This document shows, piece after piece, positions 14,948 to 30,923 of a stretch of 64,000 nt of DNA. This stretch comes from Thiothrix unzii. Its GTDB lineage: Bacteria > Pseudomonadota > Gammaproteobacteria > Thiotrichales > Thiotrichaceae. The DNA lies in NCBI RefSeq assembly GCF_017901175.1, contig NZ_CP072793.1:2914001-2978000 (forward strand). Reading direction: 5' to 3'. The position numbers and the translations under genes were made by a program. Under the pieces are notes generated by a model. That model saw only the letters and a program-made list of their open reading frames with translations. It made no database searches and was not told the origin of the DNA. Position 1 is the first letter of the stretch. Each line of letters starts with the position of its first letter.

Positions 14948-16309
14948 TCAAGTTTCCATAAACTCATTCTTCTTTAGCAGGCGGTACACATTGCGCTCAC
15001 TAATACCCAAGGCTCTCGCCACCTTACCCCGATGCCCACTGAATTTATCCAGCAATACGTGCAGATAATGCTGCTCCAAATCTTCCAGTGTAGGTATATG
15101 CTTAAAATCCAAGCTAATTCCCTTAGTATCCACAGATACAACACCTGTTGCCGCAGCGCAATCACTCAACATAATATGCCCCGGCAAAATCCGCGCTGTA
15201 TCGCCCGACAGGATAATCGCCCGTTCCACCATGTTTTTGAGTTCACGAATATTCCCCGGCCACGGATACGCCACCAGTTTTGCCAACGCCTCCTCGCTCA
15301 AGTGCTTGTTAACCCGCCGCGAAAAGTCGTGGTTATTGATAAAATGTTTCACCAATGCCGGAATATCGTCACTGCGTTGGCGCAACGGCGGCACGTAAAT
15401 GGTAAAGGCATTCAGACGGTAAAACAGATCCGCCCGGAACGTACCTTCCTGCGACATTGCCAGCAAATCGCGGTTGGTAGCAGCAACTACCCGCACGTTG
15501 GCACTTAAGTCACGAGTACCACCCAGCCGCCGGAAACGCCCAGTTTCCAGCACCCGTAACAATTTAGCCTGAATCGCTGGAGTAATTTCACCAATTTCAT
15601 CCAGAAACAGCGTGCCACCTTCGGCGCTTTCGATCAGCCCTTTTTTCTGGCGATCCGCACCGGTAAACGCGCCTTTTTCATGCCCGAACAGTTCCGACTC
15701 GAACAGGTTTTCCTGCATGGTGCAGCAATCCAAAGCGACGAAACTGCGACTAGCGACTTGGCTGCGTTCGTGGATTTCGCGGGCAACCAATTCTTTGCCC
15801 ACCCCGCTTTCGCCCTGAATCAGCACCGTCATCATGCTGGGGGCAACCGCACCAATCATGTTTTCTACCTCCTTCAAGGCAGGACTTTGCCCGACCATGA
15901 AGGACTTGCGCTTTTGCACCTGCTCTTTGAGGTAGAGAAATTCCTGTTTCATGCTGTGCGCGTCCAGCACTTTGCGGATCACCAGTTGCAACTCGTCCAG
16001 ATTCACCGGCTTGAGCAAGTATTCAGCCGCACCTGCCTGCATTGCCCCGACCGCCTCCTTTACGCTGCCATAAGCGGTAATAATGATCACCGGGCAATCC
16101 CCGACCAATTGCGGCAAAATGTCGCGCCCCCGCGCATCCGGCAACTGGCAATCCAGCAGCACCAGATGCGGGTCATGTTGTTGCAAATACGCCTGCGCCG
16201 CCGCCCATGAATGCACCCCGGTTGCCGCGTGCCCCATGCGGTTGAGCTGCCCCACCATCAAACGATTCAGGGTTACGTCGTCGTCAATCACCAATACCAA
16301 GGGAATCAT
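14948..16309 (-). CDS. NtrC-family sigma-54-dependent response regulator
   Basis: 453 residues. REC domain at 1-120 with acidic pocket VIDDD and phospho-acceptor Asp53 (LLDCQLP). AAA+ domain at about 140-375 with Walker A GESGVGKE, the sigma-54-contacting loop ELFGHEKGAFTGA, Walker B GGTLFLDE and FYRLN. C-terminal Fis-type helix-turn-helix (GKVARALGISERNVYRLL). Its start overlaps the kinase stop (ATGA), so the two form one operon. A matching -24/-12 promoter with upstream palindromes lies just beyond the kinase, so the redox operon there is its likely target. Confidence 0.93.
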   Translation of the reverse strand: MIPLVLVIDDDVTLNRLMVGQLNRMGHAATGVHSWAAAQAYLQQHDPHLVLLDCQLPDARGRDILPQLVGDCPVIIITAYGSVKEAVGAMQAGAAEYLLKPVNLDELQLVIRKVLDAHSMKQEFLYLKEQVQKRKSFMVGQSPALKEVENMIGAVAPSMMTVLIQGESGVGKELVAREIHERSQVASRSFVALDCCTMQENLFESELFGHEKGAFTGADRQKKGLIESAEGGTLFLDEIGEITPAIQAKLLRVLETGRFRRLGGTRDLSANVRVVAATNRDLLAMSQEGTFRADLFYRLNAFTIYVPPLRQRSDDIPALVKHFINNHDFSRRVNKHLSEEALAKLVAYPWPGNIRELKNMVERAIILSGDTARILPGHIMLSDCAAATGVVSVDTKGISLDFKHIPTLEDLEQHYLHVLLDKFSGHRGKVARALGISERNVYRLLKKNEFMET

Positions 16310-18210
16310 GCTGCCTCCTGAGCCACGTTTTGCACGTCATCCGCATCGGGAAAATGCAGCACAAATGCCGTCTTCCCTGCCGCATGTTCCGCCACCTGTA
16401 TTTGACCGCCATGTTGTTTGACCAGCGTGCGGGTAATGGTCAGCCCCAACCCAGTGCCACGTTGGTCATGACGACGGCTGAAAAACGGGTCGAAAATATG
16501 CGCCAGAATCGCGTCGGGAATGCCCGTACCCGAGTCCTCCACCCGAATTTCAACCGTAGCACCCTGTTTGCGGGTAATGACCCGCAATTCGCCGCCCGCT
16601 GGCATGGCGTGGAAGGCATTTTGCGCCAGATTCAGGATAATCATACGCACATCGTTATCCGCCGCGAGGATGCGCGGATTGCTGGAATCCAGTTTCAACG
16701 CTTCGCCAATCCCTTGTTGTTCGCGCTCGAAACGCAACAGGGACAGGGTTTCGCGAATCACACCGTTCACCTCCACCAGTTCGGGATGCCCGCTGGCAAG
16801 CGTACCAAGCTTCATCAGGCGGCGAGTCACGTTGAGGCATTGTTCCACTTGTTCGTCTACCAGATGCAGGTAATCTTTCAGCTCCGTCACATTTTCCTGT
16901 GAAGTATCCAATATCTGATCGCTGGCTTGCAGCGCAATGCGTACCGATGCGAGTGGGTTATGGATTTCGTGGGCAACGCCTGCCGCCAACTCGCCCAGCG
17001 AGGCAAGTTTTTGTTCGTGCGAATACTGCACCGCCTTATCCAGATCGCGCACCGATTCCACCACCAGACATTCTGAGGCAACCGCTTCCCCTGCAACCAC
17101 GGGCAAACGCGCCGCGTACACTTCGGTGGATAACAAGGACGCATCAGCCCGATGCAGGGTTTCCATGAATTTCAATGTCGGTTGTTCGGCACTCAGCATC
17201 GCCAGCGGGCAACTACGCAACGATGGAGGGCAAGGCGTATCACGCTGGTAAGTGACCTTGTAACAGTATTGCTGGCGTAAACTTTCCGCAGAATCAACAC
17301 CACATTGGTTCGCATAAGCACGGTTTGCCAGCACAATCTGGAAATACGGGTCGATCACCCGCACCCCATCCGGCACGGCATCAATCAAGCCTTGCAGGAA
17401 CTGTTCGCGGCTTTGCAATACCTGATGGCTATGTTGCAAGCGTTCCGCCATGTGGTTGAAAGTGTTGGCGAGGTTTGCCATTTCATCCTTGCCCCGCACG
17501 GGGACACGGGCGGCGAGATTGCCTTGCGACAAGGCATGGCTGGCGGTATCGAGGCTGCTAATCGGTTGCAGCACATAACGCCGCATAAACCACCATGCCG
17601 CGCCCGCGCTGAACAGTACCGCTACCGCCCCTGCACCGGTCAACATCAGGATATTTACCCAACCTTTCTCGCGGATCGGTGCAGCATCGTAATCCACCAC
17701 CAGAATGCCGTTGACGGGGTGGGATGCTGCGCTGCCGTGGCATTGCATACATTCCGGTTTATTCCTGACCGGGTGGAAAGTACGCAGTAACTCACCGCCA
17801 TTGCTTGGGGTAAAGAAACGGGTGACGGGTTCGAGCGGCAGGCTTGCGGCGGTACAATCCGGGCAAAATTGCTGGATGATAGCTACTTCTGTTTGCCCCA
17901 AGCGTTGCGGCTGCGACGCAAAGCGCACCTCACCCGCCGGATTGAGGATCATCACTTCCTTCACCCCCTCTTGCTTGCCCAAATCGCTGATAATGTCACG
18001 CAAACCGGGCAGGTCGCGACGCAACATCGCACCTTCCAGCGACGACTTCAGCAACAGGCTGACCGAATGCGAGGCTTGGGTACGCTCATCCGCAATCTGC
18101 GCACTGTAGAAATAGTAAAACATCAGCAAAAAACACACCGACACCAACCCCAATACCCCAAACAGGAAGATGATAAAGCGGCGGCTCAGGTGTTGCGTAG
18201 GCATAGGCAC
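16306..18210 (-). CDS. Membrane sensor histidine kinase with periplasmic haem-binding motif
   Basis: About 634 residues. Helix 1 at about 12-34; a periplasmic domain with CPDC (116-119) and a c-type haem motif CMQCH (154-158); helix 2 at about 185-209; HAMP; a PAS domain with a Cys-rich insert (QYCYKVTYQRDTPCPPSLRS then CPLAML); HisKA (AAGVAHEIHNPLAS); HATPase (N box, DSGTGIP, GTGLGLTI). The covalent haem on the periplasmic side points to sensing of redox state, a gas or a respiratory ligand. The GTG start at 18210 is chosen because AGGGAG sits 7 nt upstream. An ATG two codons later lacks this spacing. Confidence 0.9.
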   Translation of the reverse strand: MPMPTQHLSRRFIIFLFGVLGLVSVCFLLMFYYFYSAQIADERTQASHSVSLLLKSSLEGAMLRRDLPGLRDIISDLGKQEGVKEVMILNPAGEVRFASQPQRLGQTEVAIIQQFCPDCTAASLPLEPVTRFFTPSNGGELLRTFHPVRNKPECMQCHGSAASHPVNGILVVDYDAAPIREKGWVNILMLTGAGAVAVLFSAGAAWWFMRRYVLQPISSLDTASHALSQGNLAARVPVRGKDEMANLANTFNHMAERLQHSHQVLQSREQFLQGLIDAVPDGVRVIDPYFQIVLANRAYANQCGVDSAESLRQQYCYKVTYQRDTPCPPSLRSCPLAMLSAEQPTLKFMETLHRADASLLSTEVYAARLPVVAGEAVASECLVVESVRDLDKAVQYSHEQKLASLGELAAGVAHEIHNPLASVRIALQASDQILDTSQENVTELKDYLHLVDEQVEQCLNVTRRLMKLGTLASGHPELVEVNGVIRETLSLLRFEREQQGIGEALKLDSSNPRILAADNDVRMIILNLAQNAFHAMPAGGELRVITRKQGATVEIRVEDSGTGIPDAILAHIFDPFFSRRHDQRGTGLGLTITRTLVKQHGGQIQVAEHAAGKTAFVLHFPDADDVQNVAQEAA

Positions 18211-18253
18211 GAAATAACTCCCTATTTTGAAGAGAAGAGTGTAACGCACTTAA

Positions 18254-18795: not shown

Positions 18796-20019
18796 ATGAA
18801 ACAGTTTGTTAAAAAAACCTTGGCTATGTTGGTCGGTGCGATGCTGCTTTCCCCCGTAGTGTTTGCTGAACAACAACAAGGCATGGGCGGCATGTCAGGT
18901 ATGAATGGCATGTCCGGCATGGGCGGGATGCAAGGCATGAATGGCATGTCGGGCATGAACGGGATGTCAGGTATGGGCGGCATGAATGGCATGTCGGGCA
19001 TGAACGGGATGTCAGGTATGGGTGGCATGAATGGCATGTCAGGAATGAACGGGATGTCAGGTATGGGCGGCATGAATGGCATGTCTGGGATGAACGGAAT
19101 GTCAGGCATGGGCGGCATGAATGGCATGTCTGGGATGAACGGGATGTCAGGTATGGGCGGCATGAATGGCATGTCAGGAATGAACGGGATGTCTGGCATG
19201 GGCGGCATGTCGGGGATGTCTGGTAACAAAGTTTGTACCAAATGGGTTCCTGTTCAAACAGGCATGTCAGGTATGAACGGAATGTCAGGTATGGGCGGCA
19301 TGAACGGCATGTCGGGGATGAATGGGATGTCCGGCATGGGCGGTATGAATGGCATGTCGGGCATGAACGGAATGTCTGGCATGGGTGGCATGGGTGGCAT
19401 GGGTGGCATGAATGGGATGTCTGGCATGGGTGGGATGCAAGGCATGAATGGGATGTCGGGCATGAACGGAATGTCTGGCATGGGTGGCATGAATGGAATG
19501 TCTGGCATGGGCGGCATGAACGGGATGCAAGGCATGGATGGAATGAGTGGCATGAACGGAATGTCAGGCATGGGCGGTATGAATGGCATGTCGGGGATGA
19601 ACGGAATGTCAGGCATGGGTGGGATGCAAGGCATGAATGGCATGTCTGGGATGAGCGGCAACCCAGCAATGGTCTGTGTTGAATGGGCTGATTCCCAAAG
19701 TGGTATGTCAGGCATGAACGGGATGTCAGGCATGGGCGGCATGAATGGTATGTCTGGGATGAACGGAATGTCAGGTATGGGCGGCATGAATGGCATGTCG
19801 GGGATGAACGGGATGTCCGGCATGGGCGGCATGAATGGCATGTCTGGGATGAACGGAATGTCAGGGATGAACGGAATGTCAGGCATGGGCGGCATGAATG
19901 GCATGTCTGGGATGCAAGGCATGGATGGTATGAGTGGCATGAACGGAATGTCAGGCATGGGCGGCATGAACGGCATGTCTGGGATGCAAGGTCAAACTTG
20001 GACACCACCAGCTAAATAA
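18796..20019 (+). CDS. Exported Gly-Met-Xaa repeat protein (methionine-rich, possible metal-binding protein)
   Basis: 407 residues. A signal peptide (MKQFVKKTLAMLVGAMLLSP VVFA) is followed by almost nothing but G-M-(S/N/G/Q/D) triplets, so nearly every third residue is Met and every third is Gly. Three repeat blocks are split by two related linkers, VCTKWVP (Cys147) and VCVEWAD (Cys294). The tail is QTWTPPAK. The basic unit is 15 residues (MSGMNGMSGMGGMNG). Dense MxxM spacing recalls Cu(I)/Ag(I)-binding Met motifs, and Gly at every third place is compatible with polyproline-II or collagen-like packing. Function unknown. GGAG lies 7 nt before the ATG. It is cotranscribed with a multihaem/Mo redox system. 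Confidence 0.85.
   Translation: MKQFVKKTLAMLVGAMLLSPVVFAEQQQGMGGMSGMNGMSGMGGMQGMNGMSGMNGMSGMGGMNGMSGMNGMSGMGGMNGMSGMNGMSGMGGMNGMSGMNGMSGMGGMNGMSGMNGMSGMGGMNGMSGMNGMSGMGGMSGMSGNKVCTKWVPVQTGMSGMNGMSGMGGMNGMSGMNGMSGMGGMNGMSGMNGMSGMGGMGGMGGMNGMSGMGGMQGMNGMSGMNGMSGMGGMNGMSGMGGMNGMQGMDGMSGMNGMSGMGGMNGMSGMNGMSGMGGMQGMNGMSGMSGNPAMVCVEWADSQSGMSGMNGMSGMGGMNGMSGMNGMSGMGGMNGMSGMNGMSGMGGMNGMSGMNGMSGMNGMSGMGGMNGMSGMQGMDGMSGMNGMSGMGGMNGMSGMQGQTWTPPAK
18886..19995 (+). repeat. In-gene 45-bp tandem repeats
   Basis: The Gly-Met-rich gene is built from 45-bp units, each encoding 15 residues, with smaller 9- and 15-bp subunits. Synonymous differences (tca/tcg/tct/tcc for Ser, aac/aat for Asn, ggc/ggt/ggg for Gly) show that many copies have diverged, while some are nearly identical, suggesting continuing expansion and contraction. 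Two short non-repeat interruptions (about 19222-19260 and 19657-19702) separate three arrays. Confidence 0.9.
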
Positions 20020-30339: not shown

Positions 30340-30347
30340 ATGGGGCT

Positions 30348-30376
30348 AAAAAACGAAGCCCCCGACGAACGGGGGC
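30348..30376 (-). terminator. Terminator of the small RNA
   Basis: GCCCCCG (30358-30364), ACGAA, CGGGGGC (30370-30376); on the minus strand the stem is followed by UUCG and six U (30353-30348). An alternative pairing, GGGGCT (30342-30347) with AGCCCC (30357-30362), excludes this stem, so readthrough or processing could be conditional. On the plus strand, downstream of mazG, there is no U run. Confidence 0.65.
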
Positions 30377-30494
30377 AGTCAACACGGGCAAAAGTTATTA
30401 TTATAGTTGTTTATTGTTGTTGTTAGCTCTTTGTTCAGCATTCTTGAAACGTTGCCCCCTGCGTACAGGGGGTGTCGTCGGGCGAAGCAGCAAC

Positions 30495-30685
30495 TTATTG
30501 TTATTGATGTGCTGTGGCTGCTTTCTGCCTCTTGGGGCTTGCTGAAACTTGTTGTAATCAAACCGTGACTTCCCGGTTAAATACCCCTCACGCTATCCGC
30601 AAGGGGTTATGGGAGTCGAAACATGGCTAGGCTATTTATTGTTATTAATGGCTATGCCTGCTCTCTGCTTCTTGGGGCTTGCTGA
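30495..30685 (-). repeat. Two imperfect 50-bp direct repeats inside the small RNA
   Basis: Copies at 30495-30545 and 30636-30685 share TTATTGTTATT at one end and CTTGGGGCTTGCTGA at the other, with about eight differences between. In the RNA each reads UCAGCAAGCCCCAAG...AAUAACAAUAA. The duplicated unit therefore pairs one conserved structured or seed-like block with one A-rich Hfq-type motif, as if the RNA grew by duplication of a binding module. Confidence 0.75.
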
Positions 30686-30742
30686 TAAAATCTTCCTTTA
30701 ACCCTTTCTTATTTTTGTTGTCGTCCCTTATATCCAAGGTAT

Positions 30743-30758
30743 TGCAACCCTCGTGCCA
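30743..30758 (-). promoter_or_regulatory. Sigma-54 (-24/-12) promoter of the small RNA
   Basis: On the minus strand TGGCACGAGGGTTGCA, an exact fit to the consensus TGGCACG-N4-TTGCW, with GG at 30757-30756 and GC at 30745-30744. It points away from ruvA into the 400-bp non-coding stretch. Expected start about 30733. Confidence 0.88.
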
Positions 30759-30832
30759 ACTGCACAGCGAAAAACATAAGATAATGATTTAAAAGGAATT
30801 AAGCGTTTAATTATGGATTTTCACAGGGGACA

Positions 30833-30904
30833 TGACACACGCGCTAACTGTCAAAAAGTGACACAAGTGACACATTAGCGCGTGACAGGTGTTGTCAGGT
30901 GACA
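30833..30904. promoter_or_regulatory. TGACA/TGTCA half-site cluster, probable enhancer of the small RNA
   Basis: Seven TGACA or TGTCA pentamers in 72 bp: 30833, 30849, 30859, 30868, 30883, 30893 and 30900. Pairings include TGACA-N5-TGTCA (30883-30897) and a 10-bp inverted repeat CACGCGCTAA/TTAGCGCGTG (30838-30847, 30875-30884). It lies about 75-160 bp upstream of the sigma-54 promoter, the normal place for an activator. The half-site equals that of the palindromes at 18254-18317, but the spacing differs, so the same or a related activator is possible. Confidence 0.65.
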
Positions 30905-30923
30905 ATCAGTGGCAGGCAAAACA

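Follow-up and report, generated by a model that had tools for sequence, protein, structure and literature searches.

Organization of the mazG-ruvA spacer

The spacer between mazG and ruvA occupies positions 30340-30923 of the analysed stretch of 64,000 nt of the Thiothrix unzii genome, which is referred to as the window, and all features of the spacer lie on the minus strand unless stated otherwise. Coming from ruvA, it contains a group of half-sites, an IHF-like site, a -24/-12 element, a predicted RNA and a terminator. The upstream half-site cluster, which had been noticed in a first-pass annotation of the sequence, is real and includes the exact enhancer palindrome TGTC-N7-GACA (30849-30863, no strand assigned), with further TGTC/GACA half-sites up to about position 30896. 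The IHF-like site AATCATTATCTTA (30777-30789) has one mismatch to WATCAAN4TTR, the consensus of IHF. It is followed by the sigma-54 promoter TTGGCACGAGGGTTGCA (30743-30759), a perfect -24/-12 match that is kept in nearly all units of the genus, and by a predicted RNA of about 384 nt (30348-30732), the start of which was inferred from the -12 element. At the far end a hairpin scan located the intrinsic terminator GCCCCCGTTCGTCGGGGGC with seven G-C pairs and a T run (30348-30376), where a hairpin with a U run had been proposed.

The predicted RNA is built from two tandem modules and several ARN tracts. Its leader carries the tract AACAAAAATAAGAAA (30705-30719) and precedes module A (30565-30691), which consists of CAGCAAGCCCCAAG, a hairpin with an ARN apical loop and a C-rich hairpin, and which is matched by our covariance model R1 (see below) at C2:2944565-2944691 with 113.9 bits. 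The outer stem of this module, supported by alignment A1 and by covariation, is formed by GAAGCA (30666-30671) on the 5' side and UGUUUC (30618-30623) on the 3' side, and the apical loop displays the ARN tract AATAACAATAAA (30635-30646). Module B (30437-30551), a diverged second copy (R1 match at C2:2944437-2944551, 46.2 bits), has the tract AATAACAATAAG (30494-30505) in its apical loop, and towards the 3' end AACAACAACAATAAA (30410-30424) and AATAATAAC (30394-30402) are located. All tracts emerged from ARN counts, and those of the two loops and AACAACAACAATAAA also from the AAY pattern; the A-rich tracts of the first-pass annotation are found at these positions. The parts of an RNA gene that had been assigned to this strand, i.e. 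sigma-54 promoter, A-rich tracts and terminator, are present, with the putative gene spanning 30348-30732.

Considered one by one, the promoter, the enhancer and the terminator do not exceed what chance would produce in the window. The pattern TGGCAN6TTGCW occurs twice in the 64 kb (0.8 expected) and the exact TGTC-N7-GACA once (0.81 expected), neither site being significant alone, and the single terminator found in the 1.8 kb scanned, compared to 2.7 in shuffled sequences, is no proof by itself. The ARN content, in contrast, exceeds chance. The pattern AAYAAYAAYAA occurs five times in the whole window (0.49 expected), and four of these matches, two of them overlapping, fall within the RNA. 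Moreover, the RNA contains four ARN tracts of at least four triplets, compared to a maximum of three and a mean of 0.09 in segments of 384 nt from the same 64 kb (1274 overlapping sliding windows on both strands). The predicted RNA also folds better than its shuffled versions (z = -3.6; 0/100). A protein-coding reading of the spacer was dropped: for the 60-codon frame of the RNA strand, a match over the whole length exists in G003 alone, where the DNA is 98% identical, and matches in other relatives are partial or interrupted.

An RNA family in the Thiotrichaceae

Searching with the spacer DNA resulted in matches in all 16 genomes of the genus, at 2 to 5 places each, and in 21 of 57 genomes overall; a single short match of 32 bases (G039) lay outside the family. 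The genome of the window (G000) was matched at three places, which are the window locus with its tandem modules and 3' A-rich tract and two short copies (C2:169876-169989 and C2:3283540-3283630). Each of the latter has a sigma-54 promoter of its own, one module and a terminator-like hairpin, with a predicted length of about 145 nt. Both the predicted make-up of two tandem modules and the two further copies had been missed by the first-pass annotation. The covariance model R1, built from 35 modules of the genus, found matches in 16/16 genus genomes and, within the order, in 56 of 63 genomes from 8/8 genera, with tandem doublets and triplets of the module recurring among them. A second model, R2, was built from 98 modules. 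Of 369 class genomes it matched three, each belonging to the same family, in a scan with strict filters and nine scored candidates per genome that may miss distant relatives. Rfam yielded no match for the RNA at the gathering threshold in the window, nor at E<=5 in L001, and no study of an sRNA in Thiothrix was found in a literature search that lay mostly outside the subscription journals. On sequence grounds, the window RNA is a predicted long, two-module member of a small-RNA family of the Thiotrichaceae. This apparently undescribed RNA family would be one that Rfam does not include and that extends through a bacterial family.

The long locus adjoins mazG and/or ruvA in all 16 genus genomes. 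In the stretches retrieved, both genes were present in 13 cases, ruvA alone in L003, and mazG alone in L013 and L015. For the other genera, 55 modules in L195-L234, a subset of the R1 matches, were merged to 41 units, and 8 of the 41 loci adjoin mazG and/or ruvA (L183, L195-L199, L202 and L206). In L005 (G005), the ruvA beside the long RNA matches as two overlapping pieces in different frames, which may be explained by a frameshift or a sequence error. One short copy (L128:1482, plus strand; G006) is devoid of the sigma-54 promoter and has an altered terminator stem, with the enhancer palindrome still upstream; it looks like a decaying gene.

Structure of the module

The module starts with the invariant unpaired CAGCAAGCCC, followed by an outer and an inner stem that are separated by a purine-rich internal loop and closed by an apical loop of about 23 nt; in the short copies a C-rich, terminator-like hairpin follows. 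Alignment A1 was made by MAFFT without structural information from 35 of the 46 listed genus modules, leaving out near duplicates, L128 and the second modules of long loci except that of L016. In this alignment, 95.8% of the cells pair, compared to 31-52% when the pairing is slid, and 10 of the 17 base pairs show changes on both sides, a result that was reached by none of 500 shuffles. CAGCAAGCCC is invariant in all 35 aligned modules, and AGCAAGCCC-type starts recur in most modules of the other genera. In 98 modules fitted to the model, an alignment that leans to the structure by construction, both-side changes occur in 17/17 pairs (341 cells, compared to 75 in shuffles).

Thirteen long forms were folded, leaving out L002, L006 and L012. 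In 10 of these 13, the GACUCC segment preceding the C-rich hairpin is clearly paired with a GGAGUC-like segment further downstream; the pairing is partial in L016 and is not formed in the folds of L010 and L015. Therefore, a segment able to pair with ribosome-binding sites would be hidden in the long forms, while in the short copies the CUCC segment is free.

Sigma-54 promoter, enhancer and relation to pilA

An exact TGGCAN6TTGCW site is located at most 300 nt upstream of the module in 41 of 43 homologous genus units, compared to a mean of 0.1 in shuffled sequences, and the promoter TTGGCACGAGGGTTGCA is for this reason above chance. Of the two remaining units, L007 has a one-base change and L128 has lost the promoter. 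For the 41 units of the other genera, the counts are 31 with the exact promoter and 40 with TGGCAN7TGC (shuffles, 0.07 and 0.17, respectively). Among the genus promoters, 37 of 40 are preceded by the palindrome TGTC-N7-GACA (shuffles, 0.1), the 40 being those units of the 43 in which the promoter pattern was recognized; in the other genera this holds for 20 of 40 RNA promoters (shuffles, 0.15). Other half-site spacings in the genus promoters amount to 7/40 for N4 and 0/40 for N10. The exact IHF consensus is found in 18 of the 40 (0.3 in shuffles), its start lying 29-31 nt upstream of the TGG in the -24 element. When 16 whole genomes were searched for the enhancer together with a TTGC-type promoter, 38 of the 39 matches coincided by their coordinates with RNA genes of the family and the 39th (G014:C29:16137) looks like chance; the reversed control gave none. 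In the genome of the window there were exactly three such matches, corresponding to its three RNA genes.

A closely similar arrangement precedes pilA. In T. unzii, the pilA promoter has TGTCACAAAGTGACA 88 nt before TTGGCACGCTTCCTGC and is one base off the pattern of enhancer and TTGC-type promoter. The main pilA was evaluated in 15 of the 16 genus genomes, that of G002 being at a contig edge; the enhancer is present in 14/15, TGGCAN6[TC]TGC in 14/15 and both in 13/15, and the enhancer precedes 0/11 downstream pilins of the genus. Of 22 first pilins from other genera (L286, L289 and L303 were left out as they have no clear main pilA), 10 have the enhancer and 14 the promoter. The RNA genes have the enhancer and promoter layout of the main pilA of the genus; compared to the PilR/sigma-54 control of pilA, the target here would be an RNA family. 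Since the enhancer is common to the RNA genes and pilA, and PilSR is a known regulator of pilA (PMC6058289, in excerpt), PilS-PilR is the likely switch of the RNA family as well.

The T. unzii genome encodes nine strong enhancer-binding proteins (14 matches in all). Among them, L134 was assigned as PilR from a PilS-like neighbour and from its sequence, which we take to resemble PilR; the matches of the five strong activators that were scanned against NCBIfam include no PilR model. With nine strong candidates, the regulator acting on this enhancer and on pilA might be a protein other than PilR, a reading that we regard as unlikely, though not negligible. GlrR/QseF likewise uses TGTC/GACA half-sites, with the spacing TGTCN10GACA (PMC8745638, in excerpt), and the element conserved in the RNA promoters, TGT-N9-ACA within TGTC-N7-GACA, differs from the TGTN11AGA sequence that the available part of PMC6058289 gives, together with GTCT elements, as a hallmark of PilR sites. 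However, none of the five scanned activators reaches the GlrR cut-off (best score 403 compared to 763 bits), and PilSR is the established regulator of pilA according to the same excerpt. PilS-PilR is retained as the likely activator. The neighbourhoods of the short copies, compared at four loci, have no activator gene in common. In L229 (G021), an RtcR-like sigma-54 activator is encoded close to two RNA copies that are separated by 2.4 kb; its presence was taken as incidental. The window itself encodes a two-component pair at 14948-18249 (minus strand), in which an NtrC-type activator (453 aa) is accompanied by a kinase whose CMQCH motif might be a haem-binding site. The activator (14948-16309) scores below the cut-off of every NCBIfam model listed and was rejected as activator of the RNA since nothing ties it to the enhancer.

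ARN tracts and Hfq

Hfq is present in 16/16 genus genomes, and the two copies examined (G003 and G009) keep YLVNGIKLQ and the YKH segment, which we take to be functional residues of Hfq. A period-three ARN pattern is the signature of the Hfq distal face. Of 97 modules, 95 have at least three consecutive ARN triplets in the apical loop and 74 have at least four, compared to 34.8 and 8.3, respectively, after shuffling of the loops, the set comprising 97 of the 98 modules, as one loop was too short, and consisting of related, non-independent modules gathered by a model of motif-carrying genus modules. The loops of the RNA display the ARN pattern of the distal face and may be bound by Hfq. The conservation among relatives on which the first-pass annotation had made its proposal depend was found for the promoter, the ARN loops and the covarying stems alike.

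The distal face of Hfq has been described to repress amiE via an A-rich stretch at the ribosome-binding site (PMC4063720, in excerpt). In the main pilA of the genus, AAYAAYAAGG lies over the Shine-Dalgarno sequence in 14 of 15 cases, compared to 0 of 11 downstream pilins. Looser counts weaken the link to pilA and are partly against it: leaders with at least three ARN triplets occur in 14/15 main genus pilA genes (5.6 expected) and, as a small excess, in 20/22 from other genera (13.5 expected), but also in 11/20 downstream pilins (3.2 expected), and at least four triplets are present in 0/15 main pilA and 4/20 downstream pilin leaders. A search of the T. unzii genome for AAYAAYAAGG over a Shine-Dalgarno sequence before ATG gave 11 matches, compared to 6 in the reversed control. 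The matches include pilA, a GspG-like pseudopilin gene and a cydA-like gene, named from their translations; with this level of noise, the search is suggestive only with respect to co-regulated mRNAs.

Relation to known sigma-54-dependent small RNAs

The first-pass annotation had compared the RNA to CrcZ and linked it to the relief of catabolite repression. CrcZ and CrcY (RF01675; Pseudomonas and Azotobacter) likewise have a sigma-54 promoter with enhancer and IHF site, a length of about 400 nt, several A-rich Hfq sites and more than one paralogue. CrcZ, a 407-nt RNA with six A-rich stretches, titrates Hfq (PMC4063720, in excerpt). The resemblance in length and A-rich sites is confirmed, with about 384 compared to 407 nt and 11 AAnAAnAA sites each in the window RNA and in the CrcZ of G196 (L147). 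Membership in the CrcZ family, however, was rejected: there was no covariance match in the window or, at E<=5, in L001, the positive control G196 scoring 306.8 bits, and R2 finds nothing in the CrcZ locus L147. The Thiothrix RNA further differs by its covarying two-stem module, by short single-module siblings and by the enhancer TGTC-N7-GACA, which it has in common with pilA, instead of a CbrB site. The CbrB half-sites TGTTAC/GTAACA (PMC6296734, in excerpt) are absent from the spacer as read by eye, and no transporter part, as in CbrA, was seen in the partial sequences of kinases beside the activators. Two ExoIII-like proteins were found in the genome (L311 and L312). L312, the one closer to Crc, scores 361 bits to exodeoxyribonuclease (2jc5) compared to 244 to Crc. 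It was rejected as Crc on account of its GDWN and FSDH, which correspond to GSLY and FSQH in Crc and presumably contain catalytic ExoIII-type residues. Thus, promoter class, length and number of A-rich sites of the CrcZ-like interpretation hold up, CrcZ membership, CbrB control and a Crc partner, the last judged from L312, do not, and nothing was found for the link to catabolite repression. If the RNA is a decoy, the family would work like CrcZ, yet it is apparently not CrcZ by sequence, enhancer or Crc partner.

The Qrr sRNAs of Vibrio are multicopy, with a sigma-54 promoter and a terminator each and one activator in common, and the multicopy short RNAs of the Thiothrix family are organized likewise. 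The family differs from Qrr by its long tandem-module member; Rfam Qrr gave no match in the window and L001, and among the five of nine strong activators scanned the best score to LuxO was 360 bits compared to a cut-off of 800. GlmY and GlmZ under GlrR (QseF) are also sigma-54-dependent sRNAs with TGTC/GACA half-sites and IHF sites (PMC8745638, in excerpt). They differ in the half-site spacing, N10 as opposed to N7 here, the GlrR site TGTCN10GACA occurring in 0/40 and the N7 site in 37/40 genus RNA promoters, and here no Rfam match was obtained. In the literature searched, mostly outside the subscription journals, no PilR-regulated sRNA was found; a cyanobacterial antisense RNA called PilR (PMC5924778) is a different thing. 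As far as this search extends, no small RNAs had been assigned to the pilus regulator PilR before, and those of the present family would be the first.

Possible function of the RNA family

The comparison of sequences demonstrates a predicted modular, structured RNA with a sigma-54 promoter, a pilA-type enhancer and ARN repeats in its apical loops. As the favoured mechanism we propose a CrcZ-like Hfq decoy that is wired to PilR; with PilR, Hfq and titration all being inferred, we judge its chances to be about even. Phosphorylated PilR, helped by IHF, would activate the RNA genes together with pilA. The RNAs would bind the distal face of Hfq via their ARN loops and, being abundant, draw Hfq off mRNAs whose ribosome-binding site overlaps an ARN tract, candidates being the main pilA of the genus and, in T. 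unzii, also the gspG-like and cydA-like mRNAs. Translation of such mRNAs would then rise while PilR is active. The decoy-type form would be the long RNA with its two modules, in which the CUCC segment is folded away, while the short copies keep this segment free and may also pair with mRNAs. The decoy reading is based on the tandem modules, the CrcZ-like number of A-rich sites and the AAYAAYAAGG at the main pilA. More tentatively, and with somewhat less confidence than we would need to expect it, it might be speculated that the two-component system of the type IV pilus has a dedicated RNA arm in the Thiotrichaceae, in which PilR drives pilA and a multicopy family of Hfq-sequestering ARN-loop RNAs in a feed-forward arrangement. 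If so, the same activator would make the pilin mRNA and lift its translational brake, and a pilin-sensing circuit would become a global post-transcriptional switch. An enhancer-driven, Hfq-soaking RNA would then have arisen again in another lineage, in the service of pili instead of a carbon source, offering a reason why filamentous sulfur bacteria keep several copies of RNA genes.

The main rival to the decoy is base pairing via unpaired C-rich segments. The family might consist of Hfq-dependent, Qrr-like sRNAs in which ARN loop and U tail are chaperone handles only, the conserved unpaired CAGCAAGCCCC and GACUCCUCU pair with ribosome-binding sites of mRNAs, and the long form is a mere tandem duplicate. 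This is quite conceivable, even if we do not consider it the probable outcome. Short multicopy RNAs of about 145 nt from predicted promoter to terminator-like hairpin would be in line with it, as would the invariance of CAGCAAGCCC in the 35 genus modules, the recurrence of AGCAAGCCC-type starts in most modules of other genera, and a CUCC segment that is free in the short copies and clearly paired in 10 of the 13 long forms folded; the unpaired CAGCAAGCCCC and GACUCCUCU fit a pairing RNA equally well. However, target mRNAs did not emerge from comparisons short of a genome-wide search, and the complementarity of the pilA Shine-Dalgarno sequence to GACUCCU, which fits in T. unzii (AGGAGUU), is not kept in most relatives (AGGAAU-type), and a pairing of GACUCCU with pilA was not adopted. 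Moreover, sequence and structure of the loops are kept while the stem sequence varies, and the modules are reused in tandem, both of which are more usual for protein-binding RNAs. Decoy and base pairing could also both be true, for the long and the short forms.

Sponge RNAs typically consist of tandem hairpin modules whose loops are conserved, and such an architecture would suit the titration of a protein other than Hfq, for instance another A-rich-binding translational repressor or CsrA via occasional GGA loops. In several long forms, GGA is present in the loop of the C-rich hairpin of module A, but by reading of the sequences the corresponding loop of the short copies has no GGA, and the period-three ARN pattern is a known signature of the Hfq distal face; we therefore consider such a protein improbable. 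Least probable by far, in our estimation, is a true CrcZ orthologue that acts in carbon catabolite repression with CbrB and Crc. Promoter class, length and number of A-rich sites would suit it, but there was no CrcZ match at E<=5 in L001, a single one of 274 class genomes scored above the CrcZ cut-off under strict filters and was not that of the window, the spacer has no CbrB half-sites, and no Crc with a degenerate active site was found.

Additional observations

In the product of an open frame downstream of ntrC in T. unzii (L132), an Asn/Gly-rich part leads into a long (TP)n repeat. In the window, a AACAACAAGG tract at 18872-18894 (plus strand) lies in the start of a Met/Gly-rich repetitive protein with MSGMNGMSGMGGM repeats, encoded by a frame of 375 aa (L320). 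The same genome has three identical AACAACAAGG sites with identical flanks (L314, L318 and L319), which are likely copies of an insertion element.
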